From Candidatus Bathyarchaeota archaeon (GTDB lineage: Archaea > Thermoproteota > Bathyarchaeia > Bathyarchaeales > Bathycorpusculaceae): 64,000 nt of DNA. Location: the NCBI GenBank assembly GCA_026014745.1, contig JAOZHS010000001.1:434001-498000 (forward strand), read 5' to 3'. The notes under the pieces were generated by a model. That model worked only from the letters and a program-made list of their open reading frames with translations. It was not told the origin of the DNA and searched no databases. Positions 3,675 to 54,286 of the stretch are shown one piece after another (position 1 is the first letter of the stretch; each line of letters begins with the position of its first letter). The position numbers and the translations under genes were made by a program.

Positions 3675-3851
3675 AAACCCTCTTTAGCGAACCTATTTGC
3701 AGTCTATTAGGATCCTATTAGTGGTTCTATGCAGAAACCTATAGGGGGGAGGGTTGCAGCCTCATATTTGGTGGCTATTAGAAACTCTATGCAGTTACCT
3801 AAGAGGGGTAGGTCACTATTGGCTGAAAACAAGCTCAAAAGCATGATGAAA
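3675..3851 (+). repeat. dispersed coding-like repeat, copy A (internally duplicated)
   Basis: From 3675 the DNA closely matches 54161-54283, including the 31-base core shared from GATCCTATTAGTGG to GAAACCTA. Read in one frame it gives KPSLANLFAVY, a TAG stop, then DPISGSMQKPIGGR. A second, diverged unit follows: YLVAIRNSMQLPKRGRSLLAEN. Copy B at 54158 reads through (TTG where copy A has TAG) and has one unit only. From ATG 3729 an open frame continues to 3917. Homology is visible at both DNA and peptide level, so this is either a decayed copy of a tiny gene or a mobile repeat that carries one. No function is known to me. Confidence 0.75.
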
Positions 3852-9486: not shown

Positions 9487-12267
9487 ATGAATCAAAAACC
9501 CTTGAAGTTCTCAAACAATAAAACCTTAGCTACCGCAATCATTTTGCTTCTAACGCTATCTCTTGTTGCCGCAGTTGCTATTCAAACTGCAAACGCAGAC
9601 ACCCAAGTAATAACCCACAAAACATACCTGTATTCTAGCGTAGCCAGTAGCATCTTAGGAGTTGGTCAAGACCAAGTCCTTGTTTACTGGACTGCTGACA
9701 TGCCTCCTGATACTGGAGAAATTGAAGGTGTCATTGCTGGTGCTTTCAACCGCGCTGCTTGGCGTGGTGTTTCTTTTAATGTGACTGCTCCAGACGGAAC
9801 CTCTACCATTATTAATGTTCCTGATAACCAGCAGGACTCCATCGGTGGCGGATACATTATGTTCGCTCCCGATCAGGTCGGTACCTACACTGTACAAGCT
9901 AGTTTCCCAGCACAATGGAAAAACACCACCCTAGTTAATGGCGCTTCAACACCAAGACAATACGGCTATCCCAACATAGTAAACCAATTCTATTCAGCCG
10001 CAACTAGCCAACCAATAACTTTCGTAGTACAAGAAGAGCCAGTGCCTTTATGGTCAGAGTCAGCTCTTCCGAATGACTATTGGACACGTCCAATCAACGA
10101 CGCTAGCAGACTATGGGGTCAACTCGAAGGAAACTGGCTTGCAGGTCAAGCGGGCGGTTTCTTCGGTGGCGCTGACTACAGTGGCTGGCAATACCCCGCA
10201 GGTCAAGCCGGCGGCACAACCACACGTTACGTATACGGTACTGGAACAGAAAGCTCTCACATACTTTGGACCCGACCGCTATATCTCGGTGGTCTCATGG
10301 ATGCCCGATTCGGTGACACAGGCTACCAAACTGGACACTACCAAGGCATGGACTTTACAGCATTCATCATGAACGGCCGAGTATACTATCCTGACCGCGC
10401 AGACGCATACCGCTCAATAGGCTTCAACGTCGTCGACCTCTATACCGGCGAGTTACTTATGTACGTCAACGAAACCTTCCCATCGTTCGCTCAAATCTAC
10501 AACTATGACTCACCTAACCAGCACGGAGGCTACTCATTCCTCTGGAGATCAACTACCAACCAATTAGGTGCAGGTAACGGAACTGTCTTAGAAATGCTAG
10601 ACGGCTATTCATTGCCAATGCGGCACATATGCTACATCGCTAACGCAAGTCTATCAGGCAAAAACGTCATCGGCAACAACGGCGAATACCTCTGGTACAA
10701 CATAGTCAACTATGGTACAGCCTCAAATCCCAAATACTACTTAACATGCTGGAACAACACCAACGTGTTAGGCTTAACCGCGACAGGTCCCAACACTGGT
10801 ACAACCTACTGGCAATGGCGTCCTGAAGGCGGCGGATTTGGCGGCGGACCCGGACTAAGCAACGCATACATTTGGGACGGAAACACAGGTTTTTCATTCA
10901 ACGCATCTATACCTACACCAATCGCACTCAGTAGCATCATTAACCAGACAGGCTCAATCCAAACTATCCGTGTCGGTTCACAACCGGACGGCGATGGCGG
11001 CTTCGTAATCCTCGGAACCACTGGACAGAACAACGAAGACGGCAACGTCCCAGGAAAACTCTGGTGCCTCAGCCTAGAACGCGGCCAAGAAGGTACACAA
11101 CTCTGGACAACAAGTTTCACAGCGCCATTCATATCAAAAGCTGACAACGAGTCATCAGGCATGTTTGGCACTTACAGCATGTGCGGCGTCTACCCAGAAG
11201 ACAACGTTATCCTATTCCACTCTACAAAGCAACTCAAATACTGGGCAATCGACATGAAATCAGGTCAAGCTCTCTGGGAAACTGAGCGTGAACCAGACAA
11301 CAACTACTACAGCACTCAATACAACTACTGGAACCACACCCTCTACACTACCGGCTACGGTGGTGTCGCAATTGCTTATGACATGGCTACTGGCAAACAA
11401 ATCTGGAACTACACCGCAACCAACGTCGGCGGCGAATCACCCTACGGCAACTATCCGCTTAACATCTTCGCAATCTGCGACGGCAAACTCTACATGCTAA
11501 CTGGCGAACACTCAATCACTCAGCCTATGTGGCGAGGACAAAACATCCGATGTGTCGATGCAACAACCGGCGAAGAAGTCTGGAAGATTCTTGGCATGGG
11601 CGCAGACAACGGTGCTCACTTAACCGGCATGTACATGCAGATGGGTGACGGCAAAGTTGTTGGTCTCAACTACTTTGACAACGAAATCTACTGCTTCGGC
11701 CCCGGTAAAAGCGCAACAACCGTTTCAGCTCCACAATCCATGCAAGAGCTAGGAACAACACTGACAATCACCGGCACCGTCACTGACCAGACACAATCTG
11801 GCAGACGCAACACAAACGGCCTCTACGACTTTACATTAGCCGGTACTCCAGCAGTCTCTGATGAAAGCATGTCTGCATGGATGGAATACCTCTACATGCA
11901 ACAGAACAAACCCACAGACACAATCGGCGTTCCAGTAACTGTAACCGCAATCGACCCCAACGGCAACTTCCAAAACGTCGGCGAAACCGTTAGCGACATG
12001 TATGGCAACTACGCTATACCCTACACACCTGAAGTCCCCGGCACCTACCAAATCCTCGCAAGCTTCGCTGGAACCAAAGGATATGGTCCATCCAGCTCAT
12101 CAACATACTTCACCGCAGGCGACGCACCAACCGCTCCACCCGTAGCAACTTCACAACCAACAGAATCTGTCGCTGACATGTACTTCGTCCCCGCAGTCAT
12201 CGGTATCGTCATCGCAATCGTCCTCGTCGGCGTAGCAAACGTGTTGCTGCTAAGAAAACGACCTTAA
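9487..12267 (+). CDS. PQQ-like beta-propeller surface protein, membrane anchored
   Basis: 926 residues from ATG 9487, which follows AAGGAG by 9 bases. An in-frame TTG 42 bases earlier lacks a ribosome-binding site. An N-terminal signal helix (ATAIILLLTLSLVAAVA) is followed by a region with WSESALPNDYWTRPI and then PQQ-type propeller blades, recognisable from repeated ALWETE, GKQIWNYT and GEEVWKILG strands. Residues about 750-870 form an Ig/CarboxypepD-like domain (PNGNFQNVGETVSDMYG, then TPEVPGTYQI). A C-terminal helix (FVPAVIGIVIAIVLVG) ends in LLRKRP. It is probably an abundant cell-envelope protein; whether it binds a cofactor or sugar is unknown. A decayed copy of its 3' end lies just downstream. 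Confidence 0.82.
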   Translation: MNQKPLKFSNNKTLATAIILLLTLSLVAAVAIQTANADTQVITHKTYLYSSVASSILGVGQDQVLVYWTADMPPDTGEIEGVIAGAFNRAAWRGVSFNVTAPDGTSTIINVPDNQQDSIGGGYIMFAPDQVGTYTVQASFPAQWKNTTLVNGASTPRQYGYPNIVNQFYSAATSQPITFVVQEEPVPLWSESALPNDYWTRPINDASRLWGQLEGNWLAGQAGGFFGGADYSGWQYPAGQAGGTTTRYVYGTGTESSHILWTRPLYLGGLMDARFGDTGYQTGHYQGMDFTAFIMNGRVYYPDRADAYRSIGFNVVDLYTGELLMYVNETFPSFAQIYNYDSPNQHGGYSFLWRSTTNQLGAGNGTVLEMLDGYSLPMRHICYIANASLSGKNVIGNNGEYLWYNIVNYGTASNPKYYLTCWNNTNVLGLTATGPNTGTTYWQWRPEGGGFGGGPGLSNAYIWDGNTGFSFNASIPTPIALSSIINQTGSIQTIRVGSQPDGDGGFVILGTTGQNNEDGNVPGKLWCLSLERGQEGTQLWTTSFTAPFISKADNESSGMFGTYSMCGVYPEDNVILFHSTKQLKYWAIDMKSGQALWETEREPDNNYYSTQYNYWNHTLYTTGYGGVAIAYDMATGKQIWNYTATNVGGESPYGNYPLNIFAICDGKLYMLTGEHSITQPMWRGQNIRCVDATTGEEVWKILGMGADNGAHLTGMYMQMGDGKVVGLNYFDNEIYCFGPGKSATTVSAPQSMQELGTTLTITGTVTDQTQSGRRNTNGLYDFTLAGTPAVSDESMSAWMEYLYMQQNKPTDTIGVPVTVTAIDPNGNFQNVGETVSDMYGNYAIPYTPEVPGTYQILASFAGTKGYGPSSSSTYFTAGDAPTAPPVATSQPTESVADMYFVPAVIGIVIAIVLVGVANVLLLRKRP

Positions 12268-12460
12268 ACAAGCAAAACAATTTCCCCCTTTCCCTTTTTT
12301 TGGGAACATGCAGAAAGGGCTGAGAGGGTTCTGAGCCTTTCTCATATAGAGGCAGCTTTAGGGTTTCATGTATTCCTTTCAACAGGGCCCCGGCAAACCT
12401 TTCTGTGTATTAATTCCATCTACGCTGTATTTGTTAGCTCATTTTTGGTAGTCGTGTTCC
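12268..12460. other. non-coding spacer
   Basis: Between the surface-protein stop and the decayed copy. A T-rich stretch at about 12291-12301 (CCCTTTTTTTGGG) right after the gene could end transcription. I see no coding frame, tRNA or further repeat here. Confidence 0.5.
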
Positions 12461-12761
12461 ACAACATTCCAAAATGGTTCGACAAGCGACTCATACGGCA
12501 ACTATGGATGCGCTTACACCCCTGAAGTTCCAGGAGTCTATCACATCATTGCAAGCTTCGAAAACTCTGCCACTTATGGGTCATCAAGCGCAACAATTTA
12601 CTTAGCAGTGGGCGAAGCAACAGCATCCACTCCACAACCAACAGCACAAGCAGAATCAGCATCTGACGTATATTTTCTACCCGCAATAATTTGGTGTAGT
12701 AGTCGTAGTTGTCATAGTTGGCGCAATTAACTTGCTGTTCTTACTGAGAAAACGACCATAA
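12461..12761 (+). pseudogene. decayed duplicate of the surface-protein C-terminus
   Basis: From 12461 the frame reads TFQNG, then SDSYGNYGCAYTPEVPG, ASFENSATYGSSSATIY, a Pro/Thr/Ala-rich linker, and ASDVYFLPAII. These match the end of the protein at 9487 in order (FQNVGETVSDMYGNY, YTPEVPGTYQILASF, SVADMYFVPAVI). One extra base near 12692 shifts the frame. Removing it restores GVVVVVVIVGAINLLFLLRKRP (read across two pieces) and a TAA at 12759. Upstream the matching frame is closed by TAG. No start or signal peptide is present, so this is a 3' remnant of a tandem duplication. Confidence 0.85.
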
Positions 12762-12900
12762 ACAAGCCGTACCAAGCCTCTCTTTCTTTTTTTATCTTGT
12801 AGCATTTTGGCGGTATCACGGTTTTATAAAGTGGCTGGTTGTCTGAAGTGGTGCTTCTTGCAAGCGCTTAAGTGGTAAGGATTACAATATAGCGCCCAGT

Positions 12901-12982
12901 AGGGCTCTGCAATAAGTAATGTTAGACGTGAGCTTAATTCTGCAAGCGTCTTTCCAATTATTTATAGAGCATGCAGAGCCCT
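12901..12982 (-). ncRNA. structured 3'-region hairpin element, copy 1
   Basis: A perfect 11-base inverted repeat (AGGGCTCTGCA with TGCAGAGCCCT) encloses a second helix, ATAAATAA against TTACTTAT on the minus strand, set off by a TGCTCT bulge. The element begins 40 bases behind the stop of the minus-strand pcc1 gene, so it would be in that transcript's 3' region. A second copy lies at 16538-16623. They share a 23-base block (12953-12975 equals 16594-16616), while the outer stem has changed in both arms. A 3'-UTR structure, a processed small RNA, or a hairpin-type miniature repeat are the possibilities. Confidence 0.6.
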
Positions 12983-13021
12983 TTCTCACTATTCTTAACC
13001 CTGAAATAAAACGTTTTCTCG

Positions 13022-13279
13022 TCACTGCCCCAGTTGCCTTATGTTTATTGAATTTAACGTTTTTTCAGCTATGGAGACACTGCACAGCAAGTCATCGATG
13101 GTTGCTGTTAAAGTTGCCAATTTGCATTCACATTTAAGTCGCGTAACCACAGTGTCTTTTTCTCTTACTGTTTTAATTTCGAGACCACTTGGCGTTTTAT
13201 AGTTGTCAGGCGAAACCGCATCGGCAACAGCCTGCGCAGTCCCCTCATCAATGTACTTGAGCGTTATTGTTGCTTCCAA
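13022..13279 (-). CDS. Pcc1-family protein (KEOPS-type), diverged paralogue
   Basis: About 85 residues. The best start is the TTG at 13279: it is 7 bases after the ribosome-binding site AGGGGGAG and gives LEATITLKYIDEG, which lines up with Pcc1 N-termini. An ATG at 13315 in the same frame would add 12 residues. The core (VVTRLKCECKLATLTATIDDLL) fits Pcc1, the dimer subunit of KEOPS, which makes t6A in tRNA. However, the usual ALRA...N helix is altered to TLTATIDDLL. A more typical Pcc1 lies at 58651, so this one may be the Gon7-like paralogue described in Sulfolobus. It overlaps the end of the DHH gene, and the two are translationally coupled. Confidence 0.72.
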   Translation of the reverse strand: MEATITLKYIDEGTAQAVADAVSPDNYKTPSGLEIKTVREKDTVVTRLKCECKLATLTATIDDLLCSVSIAEKTLNSINIRQLGQ

Positions 13280-14726
13280 GCTTCTCCCCCTTAAGCTGCC
13301 GACCAACCAAGTCATCCGCGGTTTTAATGAATGCCTCCAACTTGTCTAAAGGCACCTGTGCCCCCGCCGCAATGTTGTGCCCGCCGCCTTTGCCACCGTT
13401 CGCCTCCGAAGCCAACCGCATCACATCTCCCAAGTTGACGCCTTTTTTAAGCGCCGCTTCTGTTGTTCGCCCCGAAAACTTGGCTGCTTTCTCTGCTTCA
13501 ATGTTAGCAAATGCAAACAGCGGTTTTTCGTTGTGGACTAAGCTTGAGACGATGATTGATGAGACGGTGCCGATGATTTTTTCGTTTATGGCGTCTTCGC
13601 CGTAAATAACGTAGATGTTTTGGAATTCGCGCATGCGTTCAGGTTTCTCGCTGACCCAGTCGAGGTATTTGTTGATGTTTTTGCGGTAATCCTCCAAAAT
13701 CTTGTTGGATTCCTCTAAGGCGGCTTTACGGTCCCCCATACAAATGGCGATGCCTAAACTGGGGCGGTCCATGCGTCCCGTCGAGTTCAGCAGCACCGCA
13801 AATTCGCGTCCATCCCGAAGCGCCGTGTTAGGCTCTTCTTTGGTTAATACGTAGATGTTGCCGATGAGATTATCCACCTCCATATGCAGCCCCTTTGAGA
13901 GCAAGTAATCCGCTAAAGCAGTGCAGAGGCGTTTACGTTCCTCATCGTTTAGGTCGCACAGAGCTCTCACTTTATCTCCTTGCTTGAGGGGGATGCCCAA
14001 GTTCGCAACGAAATTAAGCGCCGCGCCCTCCTGTCCGCTTAAGCCGGGTATGAAGGGGTTTGTGGTAGTGGCTAGCATCTTGTATATGGGGCGGGTTTCG
14101 CGACCAAAAAACGTCAAATCCTTAACAACATTAAGCATCCCCACGGAGACGGCGTCGTTTACGATGATTTCGTTGAGGCTCCGCAGGCTGCGTTGCTCAT
14201 ATTTATCTTGCATGTCACCTAACGCGCCAACTAACGCTATGGGCGCCAAATCTTTGTTTGCTTGGTTTACAGCTCGGGCCGCAAAATAGGCGACGCCTGA
14301 ACCGCTCACGTCAGTGGCGCCGTCTATGCCGCATAGGTGAGGGTTAACTTGGGTGACGTTGGGGTTATTGGCTGTTCCAGTGATTTGGTGATGGTCTAAA
14401 ATCACTATTTTGGACTCGGGGATTTTTTCGTTAAGCAAATCAAGGTAGCCGCTGCCAAAGTCGGTGAGGATGACGAGTTGAGGTTTGGTGGCTTGCACTT
14501 CGGCGATGATTTTTTCATCCATCCATTGCATAACCCTGATTCTGTAACGCGCGTCGAGGCGGCTTAGCATTTTCCCGATGACGCTGGCTGCTGCAACGCC
14601 GTCCGCGTCCAAATGAGAAAAACAACTGATGTTTCCGTCTTTTTGGACGGTTTCTAAGATGACTTTGGCTGCTTTGTCTGCTTGAGCTAGGAACTGCTCT
14701 ATGGCTGCTTGTTGCTGTTGTGCCAT
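13248..14726 (-). CDS. DHH/DHHA1 phosphoesterase, archaeal RecJ-like (GAN type)
   Basis: 492 residues from ATG 14726 (a GTG directly before it is the alternative). The DHH motifs are all visible: SHLDADGVAAAS, LTDFGSG, ILDHHQ, and the DHHA1 glycine signature GGKGGGHNIAAGAQ near the C-terminus. Archaeal members are single-strand or 5'-3' exonucleases. Some bind GINS of the replisome (GAN), and others act on RNA. The gene lies downstream of rps15 and upstream of the Pcc1-like gene, all minus strand, an order widely seen in archaea. DNA versus RNA preference cannot be told from the sequence. Confidence 0.88.
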   Translation of the reverse strand: MAQQQQAAIEQFLAQADKAAKVILETVQKDGNISCFSHLDADGVAAASVIGKMLSRLDARYRIRVMQWMDEKIIAEVQATKPQLVILTDFGSGYLDLLNEKIPESKIVILDHHQITGTANNPNVTQVNPHLCGIDGATDVSGSGVAYFAARAVNQANKDLAPIALVGALGDMQDKYEQRSLRSLNEIIVNDAVSVGMLNVVKDLTFFGRETRPIYKMLATTTNPFIPGLSGQEGAALNFVANLGIPLKQGDKVRALCDLNDEERKRLCTALADYLLSKGLHMEVDNLIGNIYVLTKEEPNTALRDGREFAVLLNSTGRMDRPSLGIAICMGDRKAALEESNKILEDYRKNINKYLDWVSEKPERMREFQNIYVIYGEDAINEKIIGTVSSIIVSSLVHNEKPLFAFANIEAEKAAKFSGRTTEAALKKGVNLGDVMRLASEANGGKGGGHNIAAGAQVPLDKLEAFIKTADDLVGRQLKGEKLGSNNNAQVH

Positions 14727-14912
14727 CACGTTTCACTTCTTTTCCTAAAGGCGCTCTGATTGATTTAAAGCTGGCGCATCGCTGGGTCATCCTTTTTGAG
14801 GATGCCTTGCGGCTTGTCTACTTTGGCTTAAATAATTGGTTAGCGAACGCACTAATCGATGAATTTTTTTCAATGAAGTTGGAAGTAAAATGATTATAAA
14901 ATGAGAAGAAGT

Positions 14913-15353
14913 TTAGGTTACGGAGGCGATTTTTGCTTCGTACTTAAAGTTCTTTGAGAGGAGGCCTTCACGTTTGTAGTAGCGGCTGAGTTTGTGTATG
15001 CGGGCTTCGATGATTTGCATGTTGCGTTTGTTGTGTAGGTCTTTTTTGTTTTTGTCCATGTGAACGGCTAAGCCTTGAGCTTTTTTCATGAGGTTGTTGA
15101 GGTCTTCGGGCATGGTTGGTTTTAGTCCGGCGGCTTTGAGGGTGTCGCTTACGCTTTTGCCTGTGATGGGTTTTACTAGTGGGATGGCGTATTGGTCGCG
15201 TAGGATGGTTCCTATGCTGCTCATTGAGTGGCCTTCTTTGGCCAGTTTTATTATGAATGCTTCCACTTCTTCAGGCTGATATTTACACCAGCTTGGAGGA
15301 CGCCGACTGACTGGGCGCATCGAGTGGGATTTTCCCTTTTCTTGCTTTGGCAT
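14913..15353 (-). CDS. rps15: 30S ribosomal protein S15
   Basis: 146 residues, the usual length of archaeal/eukaryotic S15 (S13e). It has the archaeal N-terminal extension (SRRPPSWCKYQPEEVEAFI) and the S15 core ending HKLSRYYKREGLLSKNFKYE. It binds the central domain of 16S rRNA. ATG at 15353 is preceded by AAGGTGTAACG, and a TATA box lies at 15391-15400. It opens a minus-strand operon with the RecJ-like and Pcc1-like genes, although 187 bases separate it from the former. Confidence 0.95.
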   Translation of the reverse strand: MPKQEKGKSHSMRPVSRRPPSWCKYQPEEVEAFIIKLAKEGHSMSSIGTILRDQYAIPLVKPITGKSVSDTLKAAGLKPTMPEDLNNLMKKAQGLAVHMDKNKKDLHNKRNMQIIEARIHKLSRYYKREGLLSKNFKYEAKIASVT

Positions 15354-15390
15354 CGTTACACCTTATTGTGCACCTAAACCACACCGCACC

Positions 15391-15400
15391 AATATTTAAA
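15391..15400 (-). promoter_or_regulatory. TATA box of rps15
   Basis: On the minus strand this reads TTTAAATATT, 38-47 bases before the rps15 ATG. A start about 25 bases downstream would leave a leader of around 15 bases that holds the AAGGTG ribosome-binding site. Confidence 0.6.
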
Positions 15401-15487
15401 AGTAGTCCTATAAACCTGCCAAAGAACATAGAGCCTAAGCGCCACGGCACCCTTCAACTGCGGTTTTTCGGTGTCGCTTGTCTACTT

Positions 15488-16270
15488 TTAGGCTTCTGTT
15501 GCTTTTTCCCACATTTGGTTGTAGTAGTTCTCGGCTAGGATGACCAGATTGGGGTTGTTGGACCATAGACTGGGTAGCCCGTCATTTTCAGCTATTGATA
15601 GTGTTAATTCTCTTTGGTCAAAGATGTACATGCCAAAAGTAACATCTTTTGGGGCGTAGCGTAACTCAAAATCTGGATAATCTAAAATTGTTTTAGGCAA
15701 GGTAGCGTCTTCTTTGACTTTTTGAATAACTACCCGAACTTTTAGGTCTCTTCTTTTATTCATTACTTTTTTGAGCTGTGCCCACGATTTACTAAATCTA
15801 TCTAAACCGATGGCTGGTACCATGATGTCGATTTTTTCTTTTGTTTGGGACAAGAGTTTTTCGTGCGAATCAAAAAAGGGCATTAGCTTTGAGGTGACGA
15901 TGAATTGAGTTTCAACGGCGTTAAATTTGTCAGTCCTTTCGTTTTGTAGGTTGTTAATTAGGCGACTGTGTTTGTCTTCTAATCTGGTTATTTTTTCTTT
16001 TTCTTTTTTGATTAAAATATCTAAGGCATCTTCAAGGGGTGTGGCTTTGAAGTGTGCTGGTTTTCCCATTTTTCCTATGCGTTTTTTTCCTAGTCCCAAT
16101 TCTTGAAGTGAAGGCATTACCCGATAGATCTCTTGTCGTGCGACGTTGGAGGCTTTAGCGATTGTTTTTGTGTCTGCTTCCCCAAGTTCTAAAAGTGTAA
16201 GGTAGGTTTTTGCCTGTAAACCACTAAGCCCAAACCCCTTAAGCGTTTGGATGTGCTCTTGGCCAATCAT
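15488..16270 (-). CDS. TrmB-family transcriptional regulator (paralogue)
   Basis: 260 residues. The winged helix (LSGLQAKTYLTLLELGEAD, then SNVARQEIYRVMPSLQELGL) is nearly superimposable on that of the protein at 8528, as is the FKATPLEDALDILI linker. A coiled coil about residues 88-108 (KKEKEKITRLEDKHSRLI) precedes the effector domain, which ends NYYNQMWEKATEA. It is probably a ligand-responsive regulator; its target is unknown. A short remnant resembling its C-terminus lies upstream at 16384, suggesting that this locus once held tandem copies. Confidence 0.85.
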   Translation of the reverse strand: MIGQEHIQTLKGFGLSGLQAKTYLTLLELGEADTKTIAKASNVARQEIYRVMPSLQELGLGKKRIGKMGKPAHFKATPLEDALDILIKKEKEKITRLEDKHSRLINNLQNERTDKFNAVETQFIVTSKLMPFFDSHEKLLSQTKEKIDIMVPAIGLDRFSKSWAQLKKVMNKRRDLKVRVVIQKVKEDATLPKTILDYPDFELRYAPKDVTFGMYIFDQRELTLSIAENDGLPSLWSNNPNLVILAENYYNQMWEKATEA

Positions 16271-16383
16271 CTTGCCCTTTCCCCTGCCCAGTTATGTCCC
16301 CCTTATTGTCCTAAGGAGCAAATAAGGTTTTTCAAAAAAAGAATCTTTTTTTCCTCATTTTTTCAATTTTGTTTGCTTAAGCA

Positions 16384-16460
16384 TTATTTTGTTGCCCACA
16401 TTTGGTTGAATATTTTGCCTATTAACTATACTTGAGAAGTCTGCCATCGAATCTAGAAAA
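16384..16460 (-). pseudogene. remnant of a third TrmB-type gene (C-terminus)
   Basis: On the minus strand, codons ending at 16384 read GKIFNQMWATK then stop. This parallels NYYNQMWEKATEA at the end of the intact TrmB gene, with 14 identical bases (CAACCAAATGTGGG). A little upstream, in another frame, DGRLLKYS resembles DGLPSLWS of the intact protein. The frame is closed by TAG between the two pieces. It lies immediately upstream of the intact gene. The match is short, so this is a tentative call. Confidence 0.45.
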
Positions 16461-16537
16461 TATCTTCAATTGAGGTGAATAATAAAAAACCAAAAGCTTT
16501 TTTTGTATTTTCTATCATATACGACAAAGGGCTGAAT

Positions 16538-16623
16538 GGGCAGTGCAATAAATAGTCCTGATAAGGCGGTGGCTTTGAGGTTCCTGCTTTATCTCCAATT
16601 ATTTATAGAGCATGCACCGCTCC
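16538..16623 (-). ncRNA. structured 3'-region hairpin element, copy 2
   Basis: The same plan as 12901-12982. Outer arms are GGGCAGTGCA and TGCACCGCTC (one A-C mismatch on the plus strand, which is a U-G pair in minus-strand RNA). The bulge TGCTCT and the inner helix ATAAATA with TATTTAT (perfect here) are also present. The 23-base block is identical in both copies, while the loop sequence is not conserved. It starts 22 bases behind the stop of the minus-strand membrane-protein gene at 16645, the same relative place as copy 1 behind pcc1. Confidence 0.6.
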
Positions 16624-16644
16624 AGTACACCACAAAAAGAGACG

Positions 16645-17157
16645 TTACCTTTCTTTTGATTTACCCCATCTCGCAACAAAATAGACTGCTCCACGCGCAA
16701 TTAACGAAGCGCCAATCAAAACCATTATCGAAGACCAAAACTGGAACCACCCCGTTACCGTGCCCGCCAAAAGGAACACGCTTGCAGTGTATGCGCCGCC
16801 GAGCCAAAACACCAAGTTACCTACTGTTTCAGATATGCGCCCAATCCGCGAATGCGCAACTAAACGCATCGCCAAAATGACTATTTGTAGGATGCCGATG
16901 CCTAACATGAAGTTCATGACGGCGGTGAATAAGCCCAGATGCATGGCGGGGTCTGCGGGAGCGGGTAGCACCAGATGGCTTGTGCCGCCCATGGGGAAAG
17001 AGTTGGTTGTAAAATCTTGGAAAAACGAGTTTACCTGCCCCACAAAGTCGGGGGTGGCGACGATGACCAAGCCTAAGGTTATAAAGAAGCCGCCTACCGC
17101 TAAAGCTGTAATTAAGCCCTCATAGAGGTTCCAGTCTTTGTCATGTTGGTGACCCAT
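16645..17157 (-). CDS. four-helix membrane protein of unknown function
   Basis: 170 residues with about four membrane helices (LITALAVGGFFITLGLVIV; LFTAVMNFMLGIGILQIVIL; LVFWLGGAYTASVFLL; SSIMVLIGASLIARGAVYF) and a His-containing N-terminus (MGHQHDKDW). The loop between helices 1 and 2 is long and probably external. I recognise no family. ATG start, with a TATA-like TATTATATTG on the minus strand about 40 bases upstream. It appears to be a single-gene unit, followed by the hairpin element. Confidence 0.7.
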   Translation of the reverse strand: MGHQHDKDWNLYEGLITALAVGGFFITLGLVIVATPDFVGQVNSFFQDFTTNSFPMGGTSHLVLPAPADPAMHLGLFTAVMNFMLGIGILQIVILAMRLVAHSRIGRISETVGNLVFWLGGAYTASVFLLAGTVTGWFQFWSSIMVLIGASLIARGAVYFVARWGKSKER

Positions 17158-17250
17158 AACTTTTCTCCCCAGTTCCCTTATGCGGCAAGTGGCAATATAA
17201 TACTTTGTTTCCTCTTTTCAACTTAACACAAGTTTAACCCTCAAACAATC

Positions 17251-17273
17251 AAACTGCTGCATCTGGGCAGTTT
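17251..17273 (+). promoter_or_regulatory. palindrome upstream of the reductase promoter
   Basis: AAACTGC, nine bases, GCAGTTT: a perfect 7-base inverted repeat. It ends 7 bases before the TATA box at 17281, the position where archaeal activators bind next to BRE/TATA. No other copy was noticed in the window. Confidence 0.5.
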
Positions 17274-17280
17274 CTGTACT

Positions 17281-17287
17281 TATATAA
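17281..17287 (+). promoter_or_regulatory. TATA box of the geranylgeranyl reductase gene
   Basis: TATATAA is centred about 27 bases before the ATG at 17311. The transcript is therefore expected to be leaderless or nearly so. Confidence 0.65.
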
Positions 17288-17310
17288 CGACAAGAATATA
17301 GTACGTTACA

Positions 17311-18546
17311 ATGAATCCACAAACAAAAAAACCCGCCGAAGTCATCGTGGTTGGCGCGGGACCAGTGGGCTCTTGGGCAGCACAGCATCTAGCCCAAAAA
17401 GACATAGACGTCACAATATACGAAGAACACCCCCACGTTGGCTTACCCTCTCATTGCGCAGGACACATAAGCATCCGAAGCCTCAAACGCATCGGCCTCT
17501 ACCCACTGCCTGAGGGCATAGTAGAAGCCCAGTTTTCTGCAGCCAACTTTTACTCCCCCGCAGGCTCAAAATTCTCGCTCAAGCTTTCCTGCCCAGTGAC
17601 GGCAGCGCTGAATCGAGCTAAACTGGACCAGTATCTGGCAGAAAAGGCAAAGGCTGCAGGAGCCAAGTTGATTTTGGATTCTCGGGTTCAATCGCTGTCA
17701 ATGGTCCGAGGGGCTGTTTGTGGCGTCAATGTGGAGACAGGCGGCGATGTGGCCACTGTTCCAGCTAAAATTGTACTCGACACTGAAGGCATCTCCTCGC
17801 GGTTGCTTCGCCAAACAGGCTTAACTACCCTAAACCGGGGCGGCTTGGTTTATGCTGTGGAAACCGAAGTTGACAACGTCCAAGATGTCGAATCTGATGC
17901 AGTCGAGGTTTATTTTGGCAAGGCCTATGCGCCAGGCTTCTACGGATGGCTCATCCCAAGACCCGACGGCACAGCCAAATTGGGATTAGCAACAAACAAG
18001 GGCGACCCCCGCAAATATCTCAAACGCCTCATGACCCAACACCCCGTCGCATCCAAACAACTCGCAAAAGCAAAAATAACCTCGGCAGGCTACCACGCCA
18101 TCACATTGGGCGGACCAATTCCCCAAGCTTACACCCATGGTTTTCTCGCAATAGGCGACTGCGCCTCACAAGTCAAACCCACAACAGGCGGAGGCGTCAT
18201 TTTTGGGTTAACTGCCGCCCAAGAAGCCGCATCAGTCGCCGCCGACGCACTCAAAAATGGTGATGTTTCAGCAAAGGCACTGCATGTCTATCAGCAACGT
18301 TGCAATAGCCTGTTTAACTTTGACTTTAGAGTTATGTTGCGGTTACGGCGGTTTTTGGATTCGCTTTCTGATGAGCGGCTTGATGAGATGTTGCGTGTCT
18401 GCGGAAAACTCGGAGTTGACAGCGCCCTCAAAGACGTGGATGAAATAGATTTCCAAGGCAAAATGTTGCTCTCAGCGGTGGGGAAACCTGCGATGGCAGT
18501 GGCGCTTGCCTATTTTGCGCTGCTCTATCTCTCTGCAAACCCTTAA
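17311..18546 (+). CDS. geranylgeranyl reductase family FAD enzyme
   Basis: 411 residues. The N-terminal Rossmann motif VVGAGPVGSWAA binds FAD. PSHCAGHIS is the conserved Cys-containing family motif, GFYGWLIPRPDG sits in the substrate cavity, and FLAIGDCASQVKPTTGGG is the second FAD-contacting motif. Family members reduce the double bonds of geranylgeranyl chains in archaeal ether lipids. Other prenyl substrates (menaquinone, dolichol) are possible. The C-terminal hydrophobic segment (MAVALAYFALLYLSA) may attach it to the membrane. It precedes pth2 by 33 bases. A CDP-archaeol synthase is encoded elsewhere in the window (41074). Confidence 0.9.
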   Translation: MNPQTKKPAEVIVVGAGPVGSWAAQHLAQKDIDVTIYEEHPHVGLPSHCAGHISIRSLKRIGLYPLPEGIVEAQFSAANFYSPAGSKFSLKLSCPVTAALNRAKLDQYLAEKAKAAGAKLILDSRVQSLSMVRGAVCGVNVETGGDVATVPAKIVLDTEGISSRLLRQTGLTTLNRGGLVYAVETEVDNVQDVESDAVEVYFGKAYAPGFYGWLIPRPDGTAKLGLATNKGDPRKYLKRLMTQHPVASKQLAKAKITSAGYHAITLGGPIPQAYTHGFLAIGDCASQVKPTTGGGVIFGLTAAQEAASVAADALKNGDVSAKALHVYQQRCNSLFNFDFRVMLRLRRFLDSLSDERLDEMLRVCGKLGVDSALKDVDEIDFQGKMLLSAVGKPAMAVALAYFALLYLSANP

Positions 18547-54157: not shown

Positions 54158-54286
54158 TTGAAACCAGCTAAAACGAACCTATTTGGCGTCTATTTGGATC
54201 CTATTAGTGGTTCTATGCAGAAACCTAAGGGGGGTAGGTCGGTATTGGCTGAAAACCCATCCAATAATATGTTGAAAATCAGTTAG
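54158..54286 (+). repeat. dispersed coding-like repeat, copy B (possible 42-residue gene)
   Basis: The frame opened by TTG 54158, 6 bases after GAGGCGGG, reads KPAKTNLFGVYLDPISG, SMQKPKGGRSVLAEN, PSNNMLKIS, then TAG. The DNA matches copy A at 3675 closely through GAAACCTA, and again in the GGTAGGTC-x4-TTGGCTGAAAAC part of copy A's second unit. Copy B has no in-frame stop where copy A has TAG, so it may be the intact form of a tiny gene. It lies between the DUF488 and proteasome alpha genes. Confidence 0.6.

Follow-up and report, generated by a model that had tools for sequence, protein, structure and literature searches.

Integron attC sites are bounded by the terminal boxes RYYYAAC ... GTTRRRY. 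They contain extrahelical bases and a central spacer, have a variable terminal structure, and are used with strand selectivity (PMC8946536). The element described here, which occurs twice in a 64-kb window (the whole stretch of DNA that was analysed, 64,000 nucleotides) of an archaeal genome that comprises 2.7 Mb in three contigs, resembles these sites in several respects: its hairpin is imperfect, with unpaired bases and a terminal structure that varies, its copies lie behind stop codons in one orientation, and the strand opposite the genes folds better. It differs from them in that its asymmetry between strands is weak when folded as DNA, no cassette array accompanies it, and the attC boxes are absent from its ends, which are AGGGCTCTGCA/TGCAGAGCCCT in copy 1 and TGGGCAGTGCA/TGCACCGCTCC in copy 2.

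REP and MITE sequences and palindromic elements of the IS200/IS605 type are also small, scattered intergenic hairpins with mismatches or bulges. In contrast to the many dispersed genome copies that characterize REP and MITE families, only two copies of the present element exist; no source element was found, and the copies differ greatly outside the core. No Y1 transposase gene lies near the hairpins, the genes between or beside the copies being pcc1, DHH, rpS15, TrmB and a membrane-protein gene. Orphan candidates for structured noncoding RNAs, such as the 104 motifs described in PMC2864571, share with the element an intergenic location, fixed loops or bulges, and helices that vary yet remain paired, whereas the element is represented by two copies in one genome, with minimal support from covariation.

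A hairpin with a fixed core in two copies

Copy 1 (12901-12982, plus strand, 82 nt) was delimited by sequence, RNA folding and covariance-model matches, and copy 2 (16537-16623, 87 nt), which has the same orientation, by sequence and RNA folding. A block of 23 bases, TCCAATTATTTATAGAGCATGCA, is identical in the two (12953-12975 and 16594-16616, plus strand), and a second conserved block, GGGC..TGCAATAA.TA, occupies the matching place on the 5′ side of each; the insert between these blocks is unrelated in sequence and differs in length. Within the window, 16-mers repeated on the same strand come only from this element and a single further repeat family, and only two places carry perfect arms of 11 bp separated by 20-100 nt, so that the element is beyond chance. 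The flanks of the copies have nothing evident in common, and the pair is therefore not a simple segmental duplication. Plus-strand ORFs overlap both copies, and the peptide QLFIEHA occurs in both ORFs. A coding repeat was nevertheless rejected, because the distance from one conserved block to the other is not the same in the two copies (a difference of 5 nt); the conservation is not coding, since the difference between 82 and 87 nt is not a multiple of 3.

On the plus strand, the two copies share one fold, a single long hairpin that consists of an outer helix (P1), a 6-nt bulge on the 3′ side (AGAGCA), a second helix of nine A/T-rich pairs (P2), an internal loop with UCC on its 3′ side, and a variable apical hairpin (P3). 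In copy 1, the P1 arms AGGGCTCTGCA (12901-12911) and TGCAGAGCCCT (12972-12982) form a perfect 11-bp complement, P2 is formed by ATAAGTAAT (12912-12920) and ATTATTTAT (12957-12965), the conserved bulge at the junction of P2 and P1 occupies 12966-12971, and P3 (AGACG...CGTCT) extends over 12924-12952. In copy 2, TGGGCAGTGCA (16537-16547) forms 9 standard pairs out of 11 with TGCACCGCTCC (16613-16623), ATAAATAGT (16548-16556) pairs with 16598-16606 to form P2, the bulge lies within the 23-base block at 16607-16612, and P3 (GATAAGGCGG...CTGCTTTATC) extends over 16560-16593. The perfect outer stem of copy 1, the bulge (TGCTCT as read on the minus strand), the inner A/T helix and the 23-base identity are all as described in the original prediction.

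Three P1 pairs are altered on both sides between copies 1 and 2, and one pair is altered on one side only. Among the two-sided changes, a C-G pair that becomes G-C stays Watson-Crick, another pair becomes A.C on the plus strand (U.G on the minus strand), and the third pairs only if a T is bulged out; the one-sided change converts G-C to G-U on the plus strand. It had been proposed that the changes on the two arms compensate for one another, which is true only in part. Copy 2 retains 9 of the 11 P1 pairs, compared with 6.4 expected under random changes (P about 0.05), and the evidence for compensation in P1 is modest. P2 and P3 are better structural evidence than P1. The best is P3, because its sequence is wholly different in the two copies and the helix, present in both on the plus strand, beats dinucleotide shuffles there in each case (p = 0.005 for copy 1 and 0.015 for copy 2, compared with 0.053 and 0.44 on the minus strand).

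Strand preference of the fold

All pairs of P2 and P3 are standard on the plus strand in both copies (n = 2), and P1 is kept there with 11/11 and 9/11 pairs. On the minus strand, the helices are not kept in both copies: P2 has one mismatch in each (8/9 pairs, compared with 9/9), and P3 of copy 2 falls from 10/10 to 8/10 pairs. At one pair in P2 of each copy and at two pairs in P3 of copy 2, a G.U on the plus strand corresponds to an A.C on the minus strand, and P1 of copy 2, if read without the bulge, contains one further G.U on the plus strand. Folding as RNA yielded -37.2 kcal/mol (z = -6.6) for the plus strand and -29.8 kcal/mol (z = -5.5) for the minus strand of copy 1 (12899-12986), and -32.1 kcal/mol (z = -2.9) and -24.0 kcal/mol (z = -1.4), respectively, for copy 2 (16532-16628). 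With DNA parameters, the corresponding values were -17.4 and -15.8 for copy 1 and -12.4 and -11.8 for copy 2. Because the difference between strands is small as DNA and large as RNA, RNA fits better than folded DNA. With two copies, the plus-strand bias is evidence rather than proof, and short palindromes may favour one strand by chance.

The original prediction assigned the structure to minus-strand RNA, in which the sole mismatch was said to become a U-G pair. This is true of one P1 pair, but the G.U pairs of P2 and P3 favour the plus strand, and when all helices are counted instead of a single P1 mismatch the assignment is reversed; the minus-strand call looks wrong. The accompanying proposal of selection on RNA structure retains its core, namely a folded single strand, but not the strand. 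Support for selection acting on a single folded strand comes from the identity of the core, which remained fixed inside helices that changed in sequence but not in pairing, from the replacement of the apical segment and from the retention of P3.

Genomic context and distribution

Copy 1 is located between convergent genes, 39 nt behind the stop of pcc1 (13022), and copy 2 is located 21 nt behind the stop of the membrane-protein gene (16645). Both genes are on the minus strand, and the distances fall within the 20-40 bases given originally; on the plus strand, neither copy is a 3′-UTR of pcc1 or the membrane-protein gene. Neighbours of the element match Pcc1, a ribosomal S13/S15 protein and TrmB in Pfam, and the membrane-protein gene has no Pfam match. 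The gene for the TrmB-family regulator (15488-16270, minus strand), assigned by its Pfam match, shares with copy 2 a segment that, by synteny, is missing from congeners between the membrane-protein gene and rpS15. TrmB paralogs are common in this genome, where no fewer than 14 TrmB-like matches were obtained at E up to 1e-15. Wherever the membrane-protein gene is found in congeners, the genes follow the order membrane protein, rpS15, DHH, pcc1; in one congener, the membrane-protein match is about 4 kb from the rpS15-DHH-pcc1 block. The gap between the membrane-protein gene and rpS15 is usually 90-133 bp, and about 560 bp in one congener; because neither the TrmB gene nor the element is present in this gap in the compared congeners, copy 2 and the TrmB gene lie in a segment that only this genome has among the genomes compared. 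The sequence behind pcc1 is unrelated in congeners, several of which have a different repeat family there.

Other features of the region were recorded in passing. Another family of intergenic repeats, CCTATTAGTGGTTCTATGCAGAAACCTATAGGGGGTAGGT with the ends AACCTA...TAGGT, is present in the window at 3690-3815, as two tandem units, and at about 54180-54270; it also occurs in several congeners, in three of them downstream of pcc1. At the 3′ end of a gene for a PQQ-repeat secreted protein, 12242-12299 and 12736-12793 represent a tandem partial duplication (about 494 bp), the second copy of which appears frameshifted on our reading. A strong plain hairpin at 12320-12355 (AGAAAGGGCT...AGCCTTTCT), behind the intact copy of this gene, is by eye unrelated to the element.

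Two covariance models were used in the searches, one built from the full copies (R1) and the other from the core after masking of the apical segment (R2). The genomes searched formed overlapping sets, namely 60 relatives, the order (163), the class (257), a draw from the phylum (398) and a family sample (41), together with 87 loci in the neighbourhood of the genes beside the element and of TrmB paralogs; stricter filters were applied to the large sets. Exactly two copies were found in the host genome, and neither model found anything convincing outside it in these sets and loci. The element is absent from the same positions in about 30 congeners. Some 700 further genomes and collections of viral, phage and plasmid sequences gave only chance matches, those in the latter collections being short or unstructured. 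The best outside score of R1 in the genome searches was 24 bits, compared with 98-102 bits for the host copies. Weak model matches in four genomes and others (18-24 bits, compared with 71-102) were rejected; several lie in ORFs, and the core is kept in none. BLAST of copy 1 against the 60 relatives returned chance-level short matches besides the two host copies. An 18-mer search of the same relatives with up to 3 mismatches found nothing better than 2 mismatches outside the host genome; a reversed-pattern control also gave matches, but fewer. A pattern scan of GTDB contigs returned 26 matches in unrelated taxa, by our estimate about the number expected by chance, and two of these represent one RecG-like coding motif (VIEHAE, our reading). 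Comparison of 12000-17500 with Rfam 15 (cmscan, E up to 5) gave no family match in the element; the only match, a sub-threshold rliB at 13039-13166 on the minus strand, lies outside it and is attributable to chance. By these comparisons the element occurs in this genome alone among those searched and is lineage-specific, and it belongs to no known family tested. The original prediction had named a lack of further copies in relatives as an outcome that would count against it. The searches found none in this sample, which limits what covariation can show.

Possible origins and significance

The explanation that is tentatively preferred is a structured small RNA, specific to the lineage and encoded in two copies, that is probably transcribed from the plus strand and would explain both the strand bias and the contrast between RNA and DNA energies. 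In the single long hairpin, the AGAGCA bulge, P2 with its A/T pairs and the internal loop with UCC would together form a fixed recognition surface, and P1 and P3 would serve as scaffolding in which shape counts more than sequence. The core may bind a protein, a ligand or a UGCUCU-containing target, and the RNA would act in trans, or antisense to the neighbouring genes, rather than as a 3′-UTR of pcc1 or the membrane-protein gene. No shared or convincing plus-strand promoter was found for the two copies; TATA-like stretches can be seen by eye at 12823-12832 and about 16506-16514. Other points also stand against a plus-strand small RNA: the location of both copies just behind the stops of minus-strand genes would be a coincidence, and with two sequences only the covariation is thin, one P1 pair being restored via a double change. 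The location behind stops and the lineage-specific positions would instead be explained by the main rival, a folded-DNA site or mobile hairpin, which is possible but doubtful. Here a miniature element, or a single-strand site for recombination or transposition, would have landed twice in intergenic DNA through an enzyme supplied in trans. Consistent with this, copy 2 lies in a TrmB-bearing segment that is missing between the same two genes in congeners, the intergenic copies share their orientation, and a fixed core with a variable apical hairpin recalls folded att sites. However, the 2.7-Mb genome contains two copies and no third that could be a source element, there are no AAC/GTT core ends, folding as DNA shows little strand preference, no shared flanking target sequence was seen, and the interval between the copies holds the conserved rpS15-DHH-pcc1 block and is therefore not a transposon body. 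The copies were also considered as attL/attR direct repeats of an integrated element, which was rejected since the interval contains this conserved block and homology extends beyond the variable segment.

The positional argument is likewise the reason for retaining the earlier view, now unlikely, that the copies form a minus-strand 3′-UTR element or a processed 3′ small RNA of pcc1 and the membrane-protein gene. Both strands can form P1, and the minus strand of copy 1 also folds well. Nevertheless, that strand carries a P2 mismatch in each copy and leaves P3 of copy 2 unfolded, its energies are weaker, and congeners have the same genes without the element; in addition, the minus strand has a T-rich stretch, CTCTTTTTG, after the membrane-protein stop and before copy 2, and the transcript may already end at this stretch. 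That the hairpins terminate transcription in an unusual way, on one strand or on both, as their location behind stops and that of copy 1 between convergent genes might suggest, is highly improbable. One published account ties the efficacy of archaeal termination to U-tracts and aCPSF1 (PMC8716108), but in both copies and on both strands the hairpin lacks a U-tract behind it, so that the arrangement of an intrinsic terminator, a GC-rich hairpin directly followed by a U-tract, is missing from the flanks of both. A consensus scan also found no terminator at the element, and a terminator would not need a fixed core of 23 bases. The P2 mismatches, the minus-strand fold of P3 in copy 2 and the missing U-tract thus argue against all three minus-strand roles originally proposed.

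A more far-reaching proposal, which is improbable, is that the element represents a new class of folded single-strand recognition sites or small RNAs, with a fixed bulge and P2 core and exchangeable apical hairpins, that would be spreading in the lineage and carrying passenger genes, the TrmB gene by copy 2 among them. With two copies and no relatives, this is a minor and unproven case, and the role of the element is likewise unproven. As an RNA, it would form an orphan class outside the curated families, with an invariant core that is clearly defined; as DNA, it would represent a small folded site that moves in an archaeon without an evident enzyme.
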